This document shows positions 2,512 to 17,039 of a stretch of DNA of 64,000 nt, one piece after another. The position numbers and the translations under genes were made by a program. Source of the stretch: Diphasiastrum complanatum (lineage: Eukaryota > Streptophyta > Lycopodiopsida > Lycopodiales > Lycopodiaceae). The first letter of the stretch is position 1; the number at the start of each line of letters is the position of its first letter. Below the pieces are notes generated by a model. That model saw nothing but the letters and a program-made list of their open reading frames with translations, had not been told where the DNA came from and did not search any database. Location: assembly GCA_029204225.1 (NCBI GenBank), contig CM055107.1, positions 6,234,873 to 6,298,872 of the forward strand, in the 5' to 3' direction.

Positions 2512-5420
2512 CTTTGTTTCTTCAGCTCCCTCTAAAAGCATGGTAGCTTTATGATCTAGAGACTGCTCCATTGCCTCTCAAAGAGCCCTTTGTCCAGAGC
2601 TTTATTGAAGATGTCAGCAACCATATCTTTCATTCCTGTGAAGGTGGTCTACATCATCTTCCTTTCAATCAGATCATTGATCAAGTGATACTTGATCGCA
2701 ATGTGCTTCATTCTTGAGTGGAACACAAGATCTTTTGTCAGGTGTATCGCAGAGGTGTTGTCCATCTGCAAGACCAATGGCTCGTTCCTTGTTTCGCCCA
2801 ATTCGTCTAGGAACTGCCTTAGCCAAATTATTTCATTGGCCATCTTTGCTGCTGCTATGTACTCTACTTCGCAAGACGACTGGGCTACAATGGTCTGCTT
2901 CTTGTTGACCCAGAGAACTGTTGCTCCTGATGCGATGGTCCATCCTTCTGAGATGCTTTTATAGTCGTCCCTGAGAGATGCCTAGCTAGCATTGCTGTAG
3001 GAAAGTATCATGAGACCTGCACCACGACAATAACACAAGCCATAATCCCTTGTTAATTCAAGATATTGCAAAATTAGTTTTGCAATCTTCCAATGTGTCG
3101 AGCCTGGATTCGTACAGAATTGGCTCATCCTGAATACTGCATAAGCAATATCAAGACGTGTGTTGTCTGCAAGGTACATTAGTGAACCTATCAGCCTCTT
3201 GTAGGGTGTGAGCTGCATCTGTTCCCTTTCTTCCTCAGTCTTTGGACAGTCGTCATTTGTTAGCACCATCCCTTCGAACATTGGAGTGTTCGCTCCTTTG
3301 TAGTTCAGCATCCCAAAGTCCTCTAGGATCTTCTGGGTGTATCTGGACTGGTGAAGGTATAACTTGTCTCCCTCATAGTCCCTTTCAATCTGTAAGCCTA
3401 GGTAACACCTGGCTTCTCCTAGATCCACTATCTCAAAATGTTTCGAGATGTCTGTCTTTACTTCAGCAATTAGCTGCTCACTCCTGCAAAGTATCAGAGT
3501 GTTGTACACATAAACAACCATTATGATGATTTGCCCATCTGTAACTCTGACATACACATTGGAGTCAGCCAACAGAGGCTTGAATCCCAATGATTTCAGG
3601 GACTGATCCTTCTTCTTGTACCATTGTCGGATTGATTGCTTCAGACCATAGATGCTTCTATGCATTCTGCATACATAGTCAAGAAGTGAATTCGAGACAA
3701 ATCCTAGGGGTTGATCCATGTAGACCTCTTCATCTAATTCGCCATGCAAGAAGGTTGTCTTCTTGTCCACAATGTGGATCCTGAGGTCATAAGCTACTAC
3801 ATATGCAAACAACAGACGTAGGGATGAATGTTTGACGACAGGAGAGAAGGTTTTAGAGTAGTCAATACCGTATCTCTGAGAGAAACCCTTCGCTACCAGT
3901 CTTGCCTTGTATTTTGTCACACTCCCGTCTGGTCCATATTTGAGTTTGAAAACCCATTTGCATATGACAATCTTGCGCTTATGAGGTAATGGCTCCAACG
4001 TCCATACTTAATTCTTCCTCATGGACTCCATCTCTTCGTTCATGGCTTGGATCCATTTGCCCTTTTCTGGACCTTCAATCGCCTCCTCCAATGTCTGTGG
4101 TTCGCCACTGAACCCACCGAATTCTTCTGATGTGGAAGCTGAGCTGCCTGGCACAAATCTTGCTGGCGCTCTTCGTGGTCTTGTCGACCTTCTGGGAGAT
4201 CCTCTCGGAACAACTATGTCTTTTCTCTTGTCTGCTCTGCTCGGTCCAGAACCATCTTGGTTTACAGGAACTACGGTGGCAGGTTGCCTCTCAAATCTTT
4301 CTTCATCTGATTCGTCGTTCGAATGGGAGATGACTCAAAAATCTTCGTTTTCGTGTTCATCCTCTACTCTCTCTGACGTTGGCGGCAGGTCATAGTATTG
4401 TCTTTCTAGAACTTCATAGCTAACAGGGTCTTCGTTGGCCATTGTCCTACTCTCGTTGAATTTGACATCCCTCACTGTTTTTCACAGTGTTCGTGTCTGG
4501 CATGTAGATCTGTAGTATGACGAATTATTGTCATAACCTACCAGAGATCCTTGCTTGGCTTTCTCATCAAGCTTCTTGTGAAGCTTATCAGGAATATGTG
4601 CATATGCCGCACAACCAAATATTCTGACGTGAGACAGGCTGGGCTTCCTACCCCACCATAGCTCATGTGGTGTCGTGTGAGGAACACTAGATTTACCTGT
4701 CCTGTTCTGAATGTATGCGGCTGTAGCTACTACTTCAGCCCACAATGCCCTTGGAGCCTTTGAGTATGCCAGCATGCATCTGGCTGCTTCCATCAGGGTC
4801 TTGTTCTTTCATTCAGCAACACCATTGTGCTGCGGTGTGTAGGCTGCAGTTCTTTTGTGAATGATGCCACAATCATTGCAAAAGTAAGTGAAGCGATTCG
4901 AGATATATTCGCCACCTCGATCTATTCTGATCTGCTTCACCTTGCTGCCTGTGCATTTCTGAGCCCAATTCACATATTCTGTGAATTTATCGAGTGCTTC
5001 AGATTTATTCTGAATAAAATACACTCTGGCAAACTTGCTATAATCATCAATGAAGATTATATAGTATTTTGAATCTTTTGCTGAGATCACGTTGAATGGA
5101 CCACATATGTTAGAGTGCACCAGCTCCAGAATTTTTGTCGTTCTGTAGGAGTCTTTGACGAATGGTGTGCGTGACATCTTGCCTTTCAAACATGCATCAT
5201 AGGTGGTCGAACTGGTTGCGTTCGAGATGTTGACCCCTGTTATTGCTCCATGATGACTTGTCTGGTAGAGTGCCATTGAGTGTCTGGCTAGTCGTCATGG
5301 GTCTGATGCATTTGATCTTCAGGTAGGTGCACCTTTAGATGATATAGGTTGCCCTTCCTTCTGTCTTGAGCAATGATTTCTAAATTTAGTGATTTTATTG
5401 ACTTTGATGATGACGACCTC
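2512..5420 (-). pseudogene. Ty1/copia polyprotein relic A (pre-integrase to RNase H)
   Basis: From 5' to 3' on the minus strand: gag-pre-integrase end (RRKGNLYHLKVH near 5330-5370), integrase core (HSNICGPF, FIDDYSKFARVYF, RIDRGGEYIS, TPQHNGVAE, 5276-4809), the integrase tail (WWGRKPSLSHVRIFGCAAYA, 4793-4482), the long reverse transcriptase (3998-2982; KWVFKLKYGPDG, ARLVAKGFSQRYGIDY, SIYGLKQ) and RNase H (2843-2649; EIIWLRQFLDELGE, QMDNTSAIHLTKD). The RT catalytic box that should read YVDD reads YVYN at about 3500-3515, so both aspartates are lost. Frameshifts separate the pre-integrase, integrase and RNase H pieces. Gag and protease are absent because the element breaks off near 5400-5420 at the neighbouring gene. 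Its wording is close to relic D at 35.0-38.8 kb, so both are likely one family. Confidence 0.93.
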
Positions 5421-5424
5421 ATAG

Positions 5425-6192
5425 ATGGCATCGACTGAGGACCAGGAAGAATGGGCAAGTGGCACATATGCCCTACAAAGGATGCTATTTGAGAGCAGGG
5501 CATATGAGGCTAATATGCCGAGTAAGGAGGAGTTTTTGGCTTTTCAGAAAAGGTATCTGCCACCTCCCATATATACTATTCCAGTTGACCAACAATCGAC
5601 CATTATTGCTGGTCACAATTTAGAAGCTGCTGGTGTGATCCAAGCTGATGAGGAGGATCTGGTAAGTACACCTTCTCACAAAAATCATTTACTATTTAAC
5701 GTGTAACTGATGATTGATCTGCTAGTTTGACTAACACTCGATTATGTGTTGTAGGAAATCGTTGAAGTTGATGCCTTTGTTAGCAAGCATGGAGGACTGA
5801 GAGAAAGACAAGGCAGGAGACAGAAGGATGCCTCATTGGCTCATTATTTGAACCATTTTGTAAATAGCGAAATTTGTATTCTTCATGAAAGGTTTTTTGT
5901 GAATGCGAGAACCTTACTCATGGCCATCAAGGCCCTATCTTATTTTGCCCAAGGGCATAAACATCCAAAAAATACATATAGAATCATTTTTGGCAAAAGA
6001 GATGTTGCTCTTAAAGTGTTCAATTACGTGCCAAAAAATGTTCCTATGAGATCATATGCTCTGGCAATTCTATTACAATATATAGATCTGAGCAAAAGGC
6101 GATCCACTCGATTTTTGGATCCGTATGATAGGAAAAAGTTTCTTCATGACCACACAGCAAAAATTGTCCTTAGAGACAATGAAGAAAAATGA
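5425..6192 (+). CDS. Unrecognised two-exon gene, convergent with the RAG1-like transposase
   Basis: Exon 1 runs from an ATG at 5425 to 5661, with a GTAAGT donor. Exon 2 runs from 5755, after GTTGTAG, to a TGA at 6190-6192. Joined in frame, they give about 225 residues without an internal stop. I do not recognise the family. Visible features are an acidic patch at the splice junction (QADEEDL/EIVEVD), a basic patch (RERQGRRQKD), and a C-terminal half rich in aromatic and basic residues (YRIIFGKRDVALKVFNYVP, RSTRFLDPYDRKKF). There is no signal peptide or membrane segment. It ends 82 bp from the 3' end of the minus-strand transposase gene, so the two converge, as accessory genes of DNA transposons often do. 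It could be an accessory protein of that element or a captured host fragment; the upstream end may have been lost at the junction with copia relic A. Confidence 0.55.
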
Positions 6193-6273
6193 TTGTACTC
6201 TTTTCCATTTAATGTATGTGAAATTTGAGAATTTTTTATTACACGCATTTGATCTTTATTGAATGCCATCAAT

Positions 6274-8804
6274 CTAATTTTGGTTTATAAATTTACATGC
6301 TTTTTTGAATCTTTGATATTCAGTTGATCTTGTTGTATATCGAACTTGAGCTCGTCCATAAAACCATTGGAATAGCTGAATGATGTAACTATTTTTTGAG
6401 GATGTTCCACCATGTTGTGTATTTCGATGAAATGCTGCTCTTGCCTGCCAATGTGATTTCTCCATTCCTTGTGAGGACCATATACTCAAACTGCCATACT
6501 TTTTTGCAAAAAATGATGCATGATGCCTTAGTATGTGCTGCAATATCAAAGATTTATGCATTGGTTAGAAAAATATGCATTGGTTAGAATCTATCAAGCA
6601 AGTTATACTAAAATTATAAAATTGTAAGACACTGTTCAAATGTATCTTACCATGTACTGGGTGATGTGATCTGAGCCCCAAGCCACACGAACTGCATCTA
6701 CAAACTCTATTGCTATTTTCTCCAATAGGAGTGCATCTGCATATGAAATTGTGTCTTTTCTAAGCACTTCAACCATATTATCGAGCTTTTTCCAAACTTC
6801 AACCTTCGTTACCCTTGTTGTTTCTTTATCTTCAAAGTCTTCTGTTGCAGAAATAACATATTTCCAAACCGAGTATTGGATCTTAGATGACTCTTTAGAA
6901 TGATTTGATAAAAATCGACGAGCTTTGACTCTTCCTATGCTAGCTAGGTTTACTGGGTGAGTTTCCTGTTTTTCTCCAAAGCTTTTCATCTTTTTGTATT
7001 TTAAAATGGCCTTTATGAAGGCCTGCTTTTGACAACACTTCCTCTAATCGAGCGATTGCTTGTTTTGATGCTGACTCTAGCTTAGTATTCCATGCAAACA
7101 AGATATGAAGATATATTAATTTCTCTATGATCCTCACCTCTTCATGAAGTGTGCAAATATGCACATTTTGTAAAGGAATTGGTAGTACTGGTTTCCAGTT
7201 GGGACCTTCAATATCTCTTGAAACTCTTGTGTTCCTTGAAATGTCATTTGATGATTTCATATAATATAGACATGGATGTTTCAAATTTGCTCCATGAGAT
7301 ACATTGAACATACATTTCAATGACTTCAAGTCTCCAGCTAAATGCCATCCCACAAAAAATTCACCTCTGTCAAGAACACTAAGTACTTTGCCATTCATAT
7401 GATCCTTTATGATATCTGGATAACTTGTTCTGCTAAAAATCCAGGAAAGAACATTGTGATCCTCCTTGATAACCTGTTCAACATATGGAATCACAAGTTT
7501 TTATATATTCAAAACAATTACTAAAAGAAATTGCACATGAATAACAGCCGTTTTTTACCTGAAAACATGCTAGCCACCATATGTTGTTTTTTGATTGCAC
7601 ACTGAAGTTGAGATCCCTTGAGTTTGTTGCATTGCTCAATGCTCCATTCATGAGAGTAATACTTACTCTTTCCAACTTTTTTCCTTTTATAACTTTCGAT
7701 TCATCTAGCTTGACCACCAGAATAAGTTTGCTCATACTAACACTTGTTATATTATAAAATTTCACTATAAATCTCAATAAATGATTCAAATCCACAAATA
7801 AGTTGTTGGTAGAATTATATGACAAATTGCCAGACTTTGAATTGTAAATCTCATTGATGTGAAAAGGGATTCCAATGACATTTTGCATACCCTTATTCAA
7901 TACATCTCTCTCCAATCTTATCTGAAAAGGGCGAGGAATGAAAATTTTTTTTACGTGCAATTGTCCAAAATCCTCTTTAATAATTTTAAATATACTCGCA
8001 TATGCCTCCCTGCTAATACCTGAGAAATCGCATGCTCCCTAAATTAACGTTCGGTCGATTACCTTACCGACCTTGTTCATCAAAGCCTCAATGACCTTGG
8101 ACTTGATTCGAGAATATCGATTATTGTCCAATAAAGACTTTGTGGACTTGGTTGTCAATACCGAACTCGGTGATTTTCCGATCAGGTCATTGTCCTTCAT
8201 ATGCTCATTTGCAACCAATGCTGATCTGCAAATGATTATGAAAATCAAGAAACCCAAATAGGACACATAATAAATGTCATGCTATTCACAAAACTAAAAT
8301 AAATCTGATTCAAATCAAATCCTTACTTGAATGCTTGAATCATTTTTCTCCGCTGGCCTCCATTTAACGAAAGCTCATGAATGTCCTTCAGAATTCTTTT
8401 TCGCTTGTTTCTTTTTAAATTCTTATCTAGTATGCAAGTTTCTTCTTTTAACTGTGCATTATCTTTTTTTGTTTGTGATAATGCGGTCTCTTTTTCTCTA
8501 TAGTCAGCAAGCAAACCATTTAACATACATTCTAAACTCTGTATTTTATGAACAGAGTTTGCAACACCATAAGTCATCAATCTTTCACAATACCCCAGTA
8601 AACGTTTTCTCTGTCACACAAAAACTTTATTAATTGTGTGATGGATTGGAATTGTGGAGCTTGCATCGAGCTCAGATCCAATGGATACAAACTTCCGTCA
8701 ATCCACAAATCATAATTCTTTCTTTGGTTGATTCTATGAGTGATCATATCAAGTGGAGAAACTGTGGATTCTTTCACTAGTCCTCTTTTAGCTATCGGAG
8801 CATT
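6274..8804 (-). pseudogene. DDE transposase relic with RAG1/Transib-like core, four exons
   Basis: I read four exons with good splice sites: 8804-8327, 8225-7559, 7473-6651 and 6537-6274. Exon 1 has a charged, probably coiled-coil stretch (about 8510-8370). Exon 2 carries VVKLDESK, the Asp codon at 7703-7705 being the likely first catalytic residue. Exon 3 carries AGDLKSL (Asp at 7330-7332), then HPCLYY, then LHEEVRIIEK. Exon 4 opens with an H-x4-H pair and runs into SLSIWSSQGMEKSHW, with the Glu at 6460-6462. In RAG1 the motifs are D600, D708, C727-x2-C730, H937-x4-H942 and E962 within WASEGNE. Here the spacing from second His to Glu is 20 residues, as in RAG1, and from Asp to Cys is 20 (19 in RAG1). 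Similar proteins with a QGxEK motif occur in animals as uncharacterised transposase-like genes, as far as I recall. Lesions: TAG at 8039-8041, a 1-bp loss near 8585, a CTAG doubling at 6940-6947, and Tyr for the second zinc Cys at 7261-7263. Confidence 0.72.
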
Positions 8805-9296
8805 CTAGGCAGGGAGAACAATGTGTAGATGAAACTGAGACATCTCCGCAATCATCAACTGACAGACCAAAAAGAAAATAGACACTATTTTTCATCCATG
8901 GCATACCTGAGATTCTATGTTTATTCTCTCGCTAGTTAAAACGAGGGACACAATCTCATTTTCAAATTTGAAAAAGTTAGTTAATGAGCGTCATAGGTTC
9001 ATGAAGTCGTAGTTAAATGTGTCAAAATTGTGTCATGTTAACTACACATTACTAGTAAGGTTAAGCTAAACTGGACCTGAAAGTCCGTCGGAGTTTTAAA
9101 ATCCGATGTTTTTTTGGTCCTACGTGGCATTTCTTAGACGGCCCTTTTGATGTTTGTAACTCCTCTAATGTTTATTTCATAATGTCGATACTCTGTTGCT
9201 TTGGATCTTTAAAAAATAGTAAAGGAAACTTGTTTTCCGATGATTATAAATCGATAATTCAATTAAACTATCATAACTTGTTGTTTGAATTGCAAG
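8805..9296. other. Spacer between transposase relic and aspartic protease copy 1
   Basis: The first 13 bases, read on the minus strand, are a pyrimidine-rich stretch ending in CCTAG that fits a splice acceptor for transposase exon 1, so an unidentified 5' exon may lie here or beyond. No other coding signal was found. A short imperfect inverted repeat (CGGAGTTTTAAAATCCG) lies near 9090. Confidence 0.4.
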
Positions 9297-13639: not shown

Positions 13640-13915
13640 GGTCTTCGAAATCCAACTACAAAATCCATCGATATGCTTTTCCATCGCTTATCAAAGATAT
13701 CCAATGGATGCAACAAACCACCAGCTTTAACGCATTCAACCTTAGCTAATTGATAGGGTTTGCATTTAATCACAGATGAATTGACGTATGGCTTGAGTTT
13801 TGACCAATAAAACTCTCTTCTGACCAAGTCAAGAGTCATGTGTATATCGGGGTGTCTTACACAAGGTATGTCATGGCATTCAAACAAAATCTTATGTCTG
13901 AGCTCATCATCACCA
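13640..13915 (-). pseudogene. Ty3/gypsy integrase fragment (H2C2 finger and core start)
   Basis: Read on the minus strand from 13887: FECHDIPCVRHPDIHMTLDL, then REFYWSKLKPYV, CKPYQLAKVE and KRWKSISMDFVVGF. These are the H2C2 zinc-binding region and the first strand of a gypsy integrase, with the first catalytic Asp in SMDFVVGF. The core is then lost in a low-complexity tail. The DNA from about 13803 to 13912 is closely similar to the gypsy relic at about 50140-50265, in the same orientation relative to the neighbouring aspartic protease copy. Confidence 0.85.
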
Positions 13916-14152
13916 CCACCTACAGAGAGAGGGCCTGTTCCTCAACAAAGAAGGAGAAAGCAAACCAAGCCCACCAGGCCTGCCAGGCAAAGGGTCGTAG
14001 TCAGCGAATCACCATCCCCCCCCCCCTCATATCTCTCGTCCTTTGGTTGGACCATCACACCAATCTGCAATGCGTTCTTCTCCTCCCGCCACCCCTAACT
14101 ATTCAAGTAGTTCCTCTTCCATTCCCCCATTCCATCCCACAATAACGAGGAT

Positions 14153-15339
14153 ATGACCTCTACTGTAGATAAAATAATATCGGATCTAGATATAACTTTA
14201 ATAGGTGATTTTTATAAGGATCTTTGTGTAAGATTTCCTGTTGATCCAAAATATTCATTTTTGGATTCTGAGAGGTATATAGTTTTTTATGAGTATGTTG
14301 CCAAAGAGATTGATAAGCTAGGAGGTCAATTTTCTTTTTGTCTAAATTCAATTAATTATGTAAATCACATAAATAAAGACTTTTGTGATGCCTTGAAGGA
14401 GAAGACAGCAGATATATCAGATCCAGTTGTGGAGGCTGGTTTGATGTATTTTGTAAATAGATGTAAATGCGATGATACTAAGGACATTGGAGTTGTGCTG
14501 TCCTTTTTTGCACACAGCCTTCATAGTCCAACTAAGGCGGCGAAGTATATTCTCCATACAACCTCGGAGACCAAAGTCTTTATTATTCCATACTGCCAAA
14601 AGTAAGTGATTACATAGAATATATCCAAGTCACATATTTATAATAAGTTTTGTAATTCCTTCAGTTTAACTAATTATCTCTTATTTGCAGTAAGCATTGG
14701 AGTGTGCATATAATCTCCCTTAGGGAAGATTCAGATGGGATCATTAATCCCATCTGTTTAAAGATGAATTCCTTGAAGTCTACCCATGCCAAAATGGACA
14801 TGATGTACAGCAAAATGTTGTCATTTTTGCCAAGGCCGGATGGTGCTACTATAAATAGCCACCTGAAGATTGTTGATGCAAAAGTAAGTATTTCTCATCT
14901 AGTATCTGATAGGTAATATGATTTGTTTTTTTTCAGAGTGCACAACTAATTTATTATACGTTTTTTGATTGAAGTCAACTCAGGAAGATGATGGACATAG
15001 TTGTGGATGGTTCTCCATCCACGATATACAGGACTTCTTAGAGTGATACATCATGCAATCCGGGGTTCCAAATATACGAAAGGTAAATAGACTAGTGAAT
15101 TTCCTAACTAAGTTATTTTCGATTTGGTTTTTGATAAGTCAATTGACTCGATTCTTCTGGATTTGTAGTATAAATGTTGAGCATTTACAATGAATGACAT
15201 ATATGAGTTTTGTCAACAGATGTTGGTGAACTTATTATCTCATGCAACACCCAGTCCAGTTGTGGAAACGGAAGGCCAATCAAGTCCACAGCTGACACTA
15301 GTGCAAGGTGGAGATAATCCATATTACTTTGAGTTGTAA
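14153..15339 (+). pseudogene. Ulp1/C48-type cysteine protease, four exons, probably inactive
   Basis: Exons with consensus splice sites: 14153-14601, 14691-14883, 14975-15082 and 15220-15339. The C48 (SUMO protease-like) signature is spread over exons 2 and 3: the catalytic His in NKHWSVHIISL (codon 14695-14697), then LKMNSLK where the family usually has DSL, so the Asp position is Asn (14767-14769), then QEDDGHSCGWF with the oxyanion Gln and the catalytic Cys (15002-15004). A TGA at 15044-15046 in exon 3 removes the last third. Such proteases are encoded by plant MULE and CACTA transposons as well as by host genes. The place beside other transposon-like genes favours a transposon origin. The N-terminal exon (about 150 residues, acidic) is not recognisable. 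Residue changes other than the TGA could still leave a binding function. Confidence 0.78.
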
Positions 15340-15663
15340 ATAATAGATTAAATAGAGATATACATTTTTGATGTAATGCCCTGTGAATAATTATGGGCAT
15401 ATAGAAAGATAGAGACAATGGGGAAAAAGCATCCATTGTTATATACAGGATGCACATGTACATTCTCAGAAAATGAGAAATATATTGATATTTATGAGAG
15501 CTTTTACAAATCTTGTATCATGATTGCTCTATTATCTGAACAATTCCACCCAAATCTTTGCATTTGATTTTCCCTTCATGTCTTTTACGTATCTGCACAA
15601 ACATACATTAATCAAATTACAGTTAGTGATCCAAATATTGACAAAAATGATAATGAATACAAA

Positions 15664-17039
15664 TTAATATAAAAATTCATAGATTTCACATACTAATTTT
15701 CCATCCAATATAAAGCTGAAATATTCGGGGATACTTTGCTGTAAAAGTGTCAGTTCCATTCTAATGTAGAATAAGGTCCAGTCCTGCTCAACCTCAGTAT
15801 TAGTAAGTAACTCTCCATTTGCCATGATATTAATGCATATACGATCAGTGTGTCCAATGCTATCTAGATCTTGATCTAATGGGGCCGAAGTACCATTGTG
15901 TTCTTTCCATCTCTGATAATGAAACACCATACTAAGCATTTGCTTCTCTATACTGTATCTAAATGATATGGATGAATGTTTGATTCTACAAGAAATATCT
16001 GCAGTGGATCTTATATCCCAACCTTTGTCCATGAATTTGAATAAAAAACAATCTGATAGATTTTCGCAAACAAACAATGTGGAAGTTCGATGGACCTCCA
16101 TGTTTGAAAAAGAGCTGACAAACAATGACATTGGAACAAACCAGTTTAAGTGCACATTTCTTGATCTAATACTAGTTTTGAGTGACTTTTGTACATCATT
16201 ATACAGCTTGGAACGAAAACATTTTATTATATTGTCGTTGACTGCAATCTACCACACGTTATCTTGAAAATTAGGTAGAGGTATACACTCTAGTTTTTCC
16301 ATTCCTCCATTTCTGTCTAGAATATACATAGCATCATAAATTTTTTTTCTAGAATTTGCAATTTCTTTTGTCGTTCGTTCTTTGTATTGCAATTTGCCAA
16401 TTTCTAAATGGATGGCATCTATAATACCTGAAAGAGATGCCACAGATTCCCATTCATGTATATTTGAAGGATATAGATTTGCAATACAAAATCATAATCA
16501 GCTCCGATTCATATATACGATAACGTTTTAAAAATGACAAGCAACCCAAAAAAATTAAGATACTTACAATTACACTTTTGAAAATCATGTGGATTTATAG
16601 CCTCCACATTAAGTTCTGAATGCATATGAACATGTTGAATAAGCACCTCTGAAATGGTTTGTCGTCCTGAAGAAACTTTGAAATCAATAATTCGTCTTTT
16701 CCAATAAGATCTACATGTATACTTGGCCTTTTTCTTTTGGCAAAAAGCCCCTCTCGTCGATGGATGCATCAGTACCAAAGAAGCCTTATGATATTCACGA
16801 GTGATCCATGTGCCATCGTCTTCCCTCTCATTATAAAAAATTGCAGAGCATATCAAGGATCTCAGTCTTTTGAAGTGTTCATGTTTGAACTTGTCAATAT
16901 GAGAGTCCAGATTATAATAGGTTGGCTCGCACGTGCTCTCCATCCACCTCCTCCCAAGTAGACTGAATGAATGGCAAATGAGACTCCCACCTCTATATAA
17001 CATAGTGTCCCTCATTAAGCACAGTTCAAATCGTGACAT
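15664..17039 (-). pseudogene. Unrecognised spliced gene next to the Ulp1-like protease
   Basis: Exon 1 runs from an ATG at 17039 to a GTAAGT donor after 16568 (about 157 residues; basic, with a Cys-poor KKKAKYTCRSYWKRR patch). A second block, about 16490-15664, is one continuous frame of about 270 residues, broken only by a TAG at 16249-16251, and ends in TAA at 15664-15666. The splice acceptor of this block is unclear. Visible motifs are EWESVASLSGIIDAIH, a basic helix with KERTTKEIANSRKKI, and a C-terminal half with regular alternating hydrophobic residues that looks beta-rich (FYIRMELTLLQQS, FILDGKLVCEIYEF). No family comes to mind. Tail-to-tail placement with the Ulp1-like gene (325 bp between 3' ends) mirrors the convergent pair at 5.4-8.8 kb, so it may belong to the same large element. 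Confidence 0.5.

Follow-up and report, generated by a model that had tools for sequence, protein, structure and literature searches.

The window, by which we mean the whole 64,000-nucleotide stretch of the Diphasiastrum complanatum genome that was analyzed (contig CM055107.1, positions 6,234,873 to 6,298,872), contains parts of two copies of a DNA transposon. The first is a left part that carries a four-exon gene, hereafter gene 1, which an earlier note made from the sequence alone had described as a relic of a RAG1-like DDE transposase. The second is a right half with two of the companion genes. The features are as follows.

5373..9170, minus strand: left part of a transposon copy, truncated at 5373, the point at which a Copia fragment starts
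9152..9170, minus strand: left terminal inverted repeat CATTAGAGGAGTTACAAAC, with one match in the window and none expected
~8843-6277, minus strand: gene 1 (DDE gene), whole, four exons
8327..8849, minus strand: matched extent of gene 1 exon 1, with the ATG likely at 8843-8841
7559..8225, minus strand: gene 1 exon 2, with the first putative catalytic Asp at 7705-7703 and a stop at 8041-8039
6651..7473, minus strand: gene 1 exon 3, with the second Asp at 7332-7330, a Cys at 7272-7270 and LH at 7146-7144
6277..6537, minus strand: gene 1 exon 4, with H-x4-H at 6537-6535 and 6522-6520 and the Glu at 6462-6460
5425..6192, plus strand: gene 2, acidic protein, C-terminal part, apparently two exons, present in other copies
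13913..16921, plus strand: second, partial element copy (right half), neither end found
14180..15076, plus strand: second-copy gene 3, the part for the Ulp1 (C48) peptidase, interrupted by a stop
15667..16871, minus strand: gene 4 of the second copy

The spliced minus-strand model proposed earlier for gene 1 stands, as its introns (8326-8226, 7558-7474 and 6650-6538) have GT..AG boundaries by eye and the same exons align in other genomic copies. The start codon is likely the one at 8843-8841, upstream of 8804. The window copy of gene 1 is a pseudogene, a decayed copy of a transposase, with stops at 8807-8805 and 8041-8039, frameshifts near 8600 (exon 1) and 6945 (exon 3), a deletion of ~84 bp at 8454 in exon 1 relative to other copies, and Tyr in place of the second zinc Cys (HPCLYY; 7263-7261).

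Beside the element, a Copia retrotransposon fragment occupies 2982-5294 on the minus strand, reading by eye from integrase to reverse transcriptase and broken by stops; it adjoins the element break at 5373. Searching the window against Rfam gave no match.

A four-gene transposon and its sibling families

The source genome (1.74 Gb in 5176 contigs) was searched with a 59-residue piece of exon 2, and 150 matches were scored of 6428 first-look candidates; gene 1 is therefore part of a repeat family. Twenty longer genomic loci were then fetched for comparison, and pieces of the window element proved ~89-96% identical to all 20. The match to the window element stops exactly at 5373 in 10 of these loci. 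A sharp left end, CATTAGAGGAGTT (window 9170), was found in 15 of the 16 copies listed of the 20, the copy at L015 being different. The near-complete copy at L010 measures 8.7 kb from this left end to a right end that reads AACTCCTGTAATG, and a genome search with the right end gave 40 scored matches of 288 candidates. The inverted ends span ~13 bp, reading CATTAGA (left) and CATTACA (right) when followed inward, and the element as a whole is bounded by CATTAG..TAATG, with a deviating last base in L023, L027 and a short insert in L014. Aligned with positions 5442-8456 of the L010 element, the second copy in the window shows 91.2% identity across 3027 columns. The gene marked in the earlier note thus belongs to a larger and very abundant DNA transposon.

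In the L010 copy, the element holds four genes: the DDE gene (gene 1, plus strand), a convergent gene for an acidic protein (gene 2, minus), a gene with histone-H3-like (hereafter H3-like) and Ulp1 parts (gene 3, plus), and gene 4 (minus). Gene 2 has relatives at 34% and 39% identity and either a weak Pfam match (E 0.024) or none, and the best Pfam value for gene 4 was E 0.16. In gene 3, an H3-like stretch (PF00125, E 2.2e-12) precedes a Ulp1 C48 peptidase, the latter matching PF02902 (Peptidase_C48) at E 1.7e-7 and 31.7 bits against a cut-off of 20.7 when the L010 pieces were joined. The H3-like coordinates are 8642-8830 in L010 (joined with L030) and 740-582 in L034. The two parts lie in different frames in L010; in L009 and L021 they are consecutive in one frame, with stops. 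Gene 3 thus likely encoded a fused H3-like/Ulp1 protein, as judged from the reading frames. The H3-like part was matched in five loci (L009, L010, L014, L021 and, over 27 residues, L027), and a relative with 41.5% identity and a stop lies beside a sibling element at L034; it is therefore not the private capture of one copy.

The flanks of the copies contain relatives of the same element, which we designate siblings S1 to S4. S1 lies around L010 at 36-67% identity by exon, S2 at L031 at 56-60% for the gene end only, S3 at L034 at 68-70% in longer pieces, and S4 at L043 and L035 at 34-66% by exon. A query with S4 exon 3 against the source genome gave 150 scored matches of 11,634 candidates. The L010 copy sits inside S1, since S1 gene 2 is found on its left and S1 gene 1 on its right. 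Element copies were seen inside or beside their own relatives at L010/L032, L034, L035/L043 and L031. This nesting looks as if the siblings were frequent targets of one another, or it may reflect mere abundance.

Comparison of gene 1 with S1 over 411 codons gave pS 0.70, pN 0.21 and dN/dS 0.12, and synonymous change between families is near saturation. Within the family, three comparisons gave dN/dS of 0.97, 0.54 and 3.36, the last resting on one synonymous change. These values indicate that gene 1 was under purifying selection while the families split and that single copies decayed afterwards.

Residue plan of gene 1 and comparison with RAG1

The motifs KLDESK and AGDLKSL, containing the first and second Asp, were found at the minus-strand places where the earlier note had put them, as was the Cys located 20 residues past the second Asp; the H-x4-H pair is also present, and the Glu of WSSQGME falls 20 residues past the second His. 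Conservation was tallied over 21 aligned rows, window included, and family numbering is used hereafter. D379 is kept in 21/21 rows and D475 in 16 of 18 aligned rows, while the zinc cysteines at 495 and 498 are kept in 17/18 and 17/19, H706 in 12/13 and the Glu (E726) in 13/13. Cys fills the second position in 17 of the 19 rows that have a residue there, and the family motif is therefore CxxC, the Tyr of the window copy notwithstanding.

For RAG1, residues were numbered back from E962, by which D600 falls in VVVKESCD; the residues compared were D600, D708, C727, C730, H795 (of LH), H937, H942 and E962. The successive distances are 96/20/3/203/5/20 in the family, 91/20/3/205/5/20 in S4 and 108/19/3/207/5/20 in RAG1. 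Both the family and S4 thus hold D, D, CxxC, LH, H-x4-H and E in the RAG1 order, and the more decayed siblings keep part of it. Every catalytic and zinc residue is kept in S4, the best-preserved sibling, of which a fully contiguous copy exists. The same is true of S3 in the part found, exon 2 not being found there. In the single decayed copy of S1, Tyr replaces both the second Cys and the second His; in that of S2, for which exon 4 alone was seen, the Glu has become Lys and the second His has become Asn.

Shuffles of the remainder of the protein were scored with the C-terminal block fixed and with windows picked after the match was seen. In 515/200,000, a CxxC fell no more than 10 residues off its RAG1 distance; the addition of an Asp 18-20 residues before it reduced this to 62/200,000, and the further addition of a later LH pair to 12/200,000. 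On these counts the arrangement of the motifs appears to exceed chance. This layout alone cannot single out RAG1, since the available text of PMC12730594 gives the C(2)C/H(3-4)H pattern as common to EnSpm/CACTA, Mirage, Chapaev, Transib, Plavaka, ESTA, Lanisha and RAG1.

We then compared the sequences directly. By BLASTP, the family consensus aligned with the mouse RAG1 core at 27.3 bits and E 0.002 (two-sequence space, composition correction off), with 11/34 residues identical around the Glu and ITHYMHILRHH..GSLSIWSSQGME paired with ITNYFHKTLAH..GSIGAWASEGNE. The Smith-Waterman score against RAG1 was reached by 3/500 shuffles over the length and by 1/1000 for the C-terminal block. In a plain pairwise alignment with RAG1, the C-terminal block alone was in register, and D1, D2 and CxxC were not. 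AlphaFold, run on two naturally contiguous reads, returned pLDDT values of 35.7 and 35.4. The modest size of these statistics, the lack of a usable fold prediction and the choice of shuffle windows after the fact would all suit a chance resemblance in an unrelated protein. We nonetheless regard that reading as highly improbable, given that the 62/200,000 comes on top of the C-terminal block and that S4 retains its catalytic and zinc residues, synonymous change between families being near saturation.

An HH comparison of four families with RAG1 scored 28.3, against a mean of 17.0 and a maximum of 27.6 for 200 shuffles and 16.7 for the reversed sequence; the corresponding P value was 0.01, but the probability was only 4%, and HH probabilities overall ran from 1.9 to 4%. 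Against the PDB, phmmer and hmmsearch returned neither RAG1 nor Transib at E<=10, only unrelated weak matches, and hmmscan against Pfam matched neither RAG1 nor any transposase at the same threshold. With HMMER filters off, the family scored at most 7.0 bits with a first RAG1 fragment, whose start was inaccurate, and 12.1 bits with the corrected one. The insect Transib chain 6pqn scored 17.1 bits with that first fragment; over that segment, Transib is therefore the closer of the two to RAG1. The RAG1 core as query against the source genome gave five matches at E<=10, the best at 0.311. Searches by exact 8-mers, by which only close relatives are detectable, gave no match for exon 3 or for RAG1 in the viral contig collection (single query each) and none for gene 1 from D379 onward in the genome contig collection.

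The notion that Transib and RAG1 are described mainly from animals has been overtaken, as the available text of PMC9435367 reports 39 Transib-like proteins from plants, 20 from fungi and 42 from bacteria. RAG1/Transib-like genes from an alga and from plants are already in print. The accessible part of PMC8355894 held nothing relevant on plants and fungi.

Insertion sites and placement among known transposons

Both ends and flanks were read for five large insertions (L010, L023, L027, C5 and C16), with C1254 left out for having the same flanks as C5 and the C3 pair dropped for having no left end. A target-site duplication next to the ends was found in none of these five distinct insertions. Two short elements of ~375 bp (L014 2288-2662 and L015 3102-3479) have the same 13-bp ends and lie inside larger copies; sister copies supplied the empty sites, and here too no duplication was found (0/2). 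Of the two short insertions, one is precise provided that its terminal base, A in place of G, is assigned to the element; in the other, a single base is missing from a homopolymer. The L027 flanks are alike over ~40 bases some 10-20 bases off the ends, a likeness that we take as an older repeat. The simplest reading of these sites is that the ends would be joined without a stagger.

These insertions bear on whether we are dealing with a genuine Transib or RAG1-like (RAGL) element that arrived by descent or transfer and then diverged. It has the same residue plan as they do, the C-terminal match to RAG1 is weak but specific, and Transib-like proteins have been reported from plants (PMC9435367, in the part available). 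The element resembles the RAG1 core and Transib, including TransibSU, ProtoRAG and the Aureococcus RAGL, in how D, D, C-x2-C, LH, H-x4-H and E follow one another and are spaced, in the C-terminal block and in having short inverted ends. It differs in giving no significant sequence match, in particular none in the PDB to RAG1L or Transib, and in a RAG1 similarity below that of insect Transib. It also has four genes, among them the H3-like/Ulp1 gene, and no RAG2-like gene was recognized among genes 2-4. The Transib end consensus is CACWATG, and the CATTAG ends are unlike this Transib/RSS-like 7-bp sequence. The available text of PMC4411706 gives Transib 5-bp duplications and one or few autonomous copies per animal genome, whereas a 5-bp duplication was seen in 0/7 insertions here and the copies are very many. 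We consider Transib or RAGL membership quite improbable. What stands of the RAG1-like relic is the residue order and spacing, their conservation, purifying selection between families and the inverted ends; descent from Transib/RAG1 is left unsupported by the PDB and Pfam searches, the end sequences and the missing 5-bp duplication.

A divergent EnSpm/CACTA element would share the C(2)C/H(3-4)H plan of the CMCT group and the CA..TG ends. CACTA elements abound in plants, where Ulp1 genes are carried by some DNA transposons. Neither the CAC..GTG ends nor the 3-bp duplication of EnSpm/CACTA was seen, and the Pfam search at E<=10 found no transposase; this assignment is in our view unlikely, if somewhat less so than Transib. 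Fungal ESTA elements have the same CMCT plan as gene 1 and are RAG1-like by HHpred, but they differ in their TA duplications, in being fungal and in that they may carry TET/JBP genes; Spy differs in being grouped with ISL2EU and in its plan, which is not RAG1-like (both from the available text of PMC12730594).

Membership in the proposed superfamily Lanisha (Maumus, McDaniel and Carey 2020, Repbase Reports, as cited in PMC12730594) is a serious possibility, though we put it at somewhat less than even. The available text of PMC12730594 places Lanisha among the cut-and-paste CMCT lineages that have C(2)C and H(3-4)H, and it gives the duplications of the CMCT clade as 2-5 bp, which counts against the assignment. 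Such membership would name the explanation that we prefer rather than exclude it. The Lanisha authors reportedly worked on a moss genome, which we count in its favor.

Our preferred explanation, which we hold to be probable, is that gene 1 is the decayed transposase of a multi-gene DNA transposon, a DDE enzyme on the RAG1/Transib/CMC plan that joined its element bluntly. The product would have an RNase H-like core in which Asp 379, Asp 475 and Glu 726 may bind metal ions, with Cys 495, Cys 498, His 701 and His 706 forming a putative zinc site beside the active site. The transposase would bind the ~13-bp inverted ends (CATTAGAGGAGTT), excise the element and join it to new sites without a stagger, in which case no target-site duplication would be left. 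Genes 2-4 would be accessory; for gene 3, with its predicted H3-like fold and Ulp1 peptidase, host chromatin or SUMO may be the target. Most likely, then, the element acts as a RAG1-plan DDE cut-and-paste transposon, and it looks like a separate lineage of RAG1 type with companion genes rather than a stray animal RAG1. By its transposase motif, not its fold, it would fit the wider CMCT group, in which the duplications are a feature that these insertions lack. More tentatively, and with somewhat less confidence than we give to Lanisha, it could represent a sister superfamily of Transib/RAG1 and CACTA, marked by stagger-free joining, the H3-like/Ulp1 protein and several mutually inserting sibling families.

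Among the matches listed, and judged by title and the start of the abstract, literature searches on RAG1/Transib, non-seed plants and lycophytes, and on Ulp1/H3 in transposons and duplication-free transposons, did not turn up the element; an empty search of this kind is no proof of absence from print.

The finding would add a very abundant lineage of several families to the transposase group that gave rise to RAG1, and such non-animal relatives would allow tests of where the RAG1 catalytic core is rooted. Insertion free of duplications would be unusual among transposases of the RAG1 group. The transposon-borne H3-like/Ulp1 protein, with an H3-like relative beside a sibling element, would be a candidate for interference with chromatin or SUMO.
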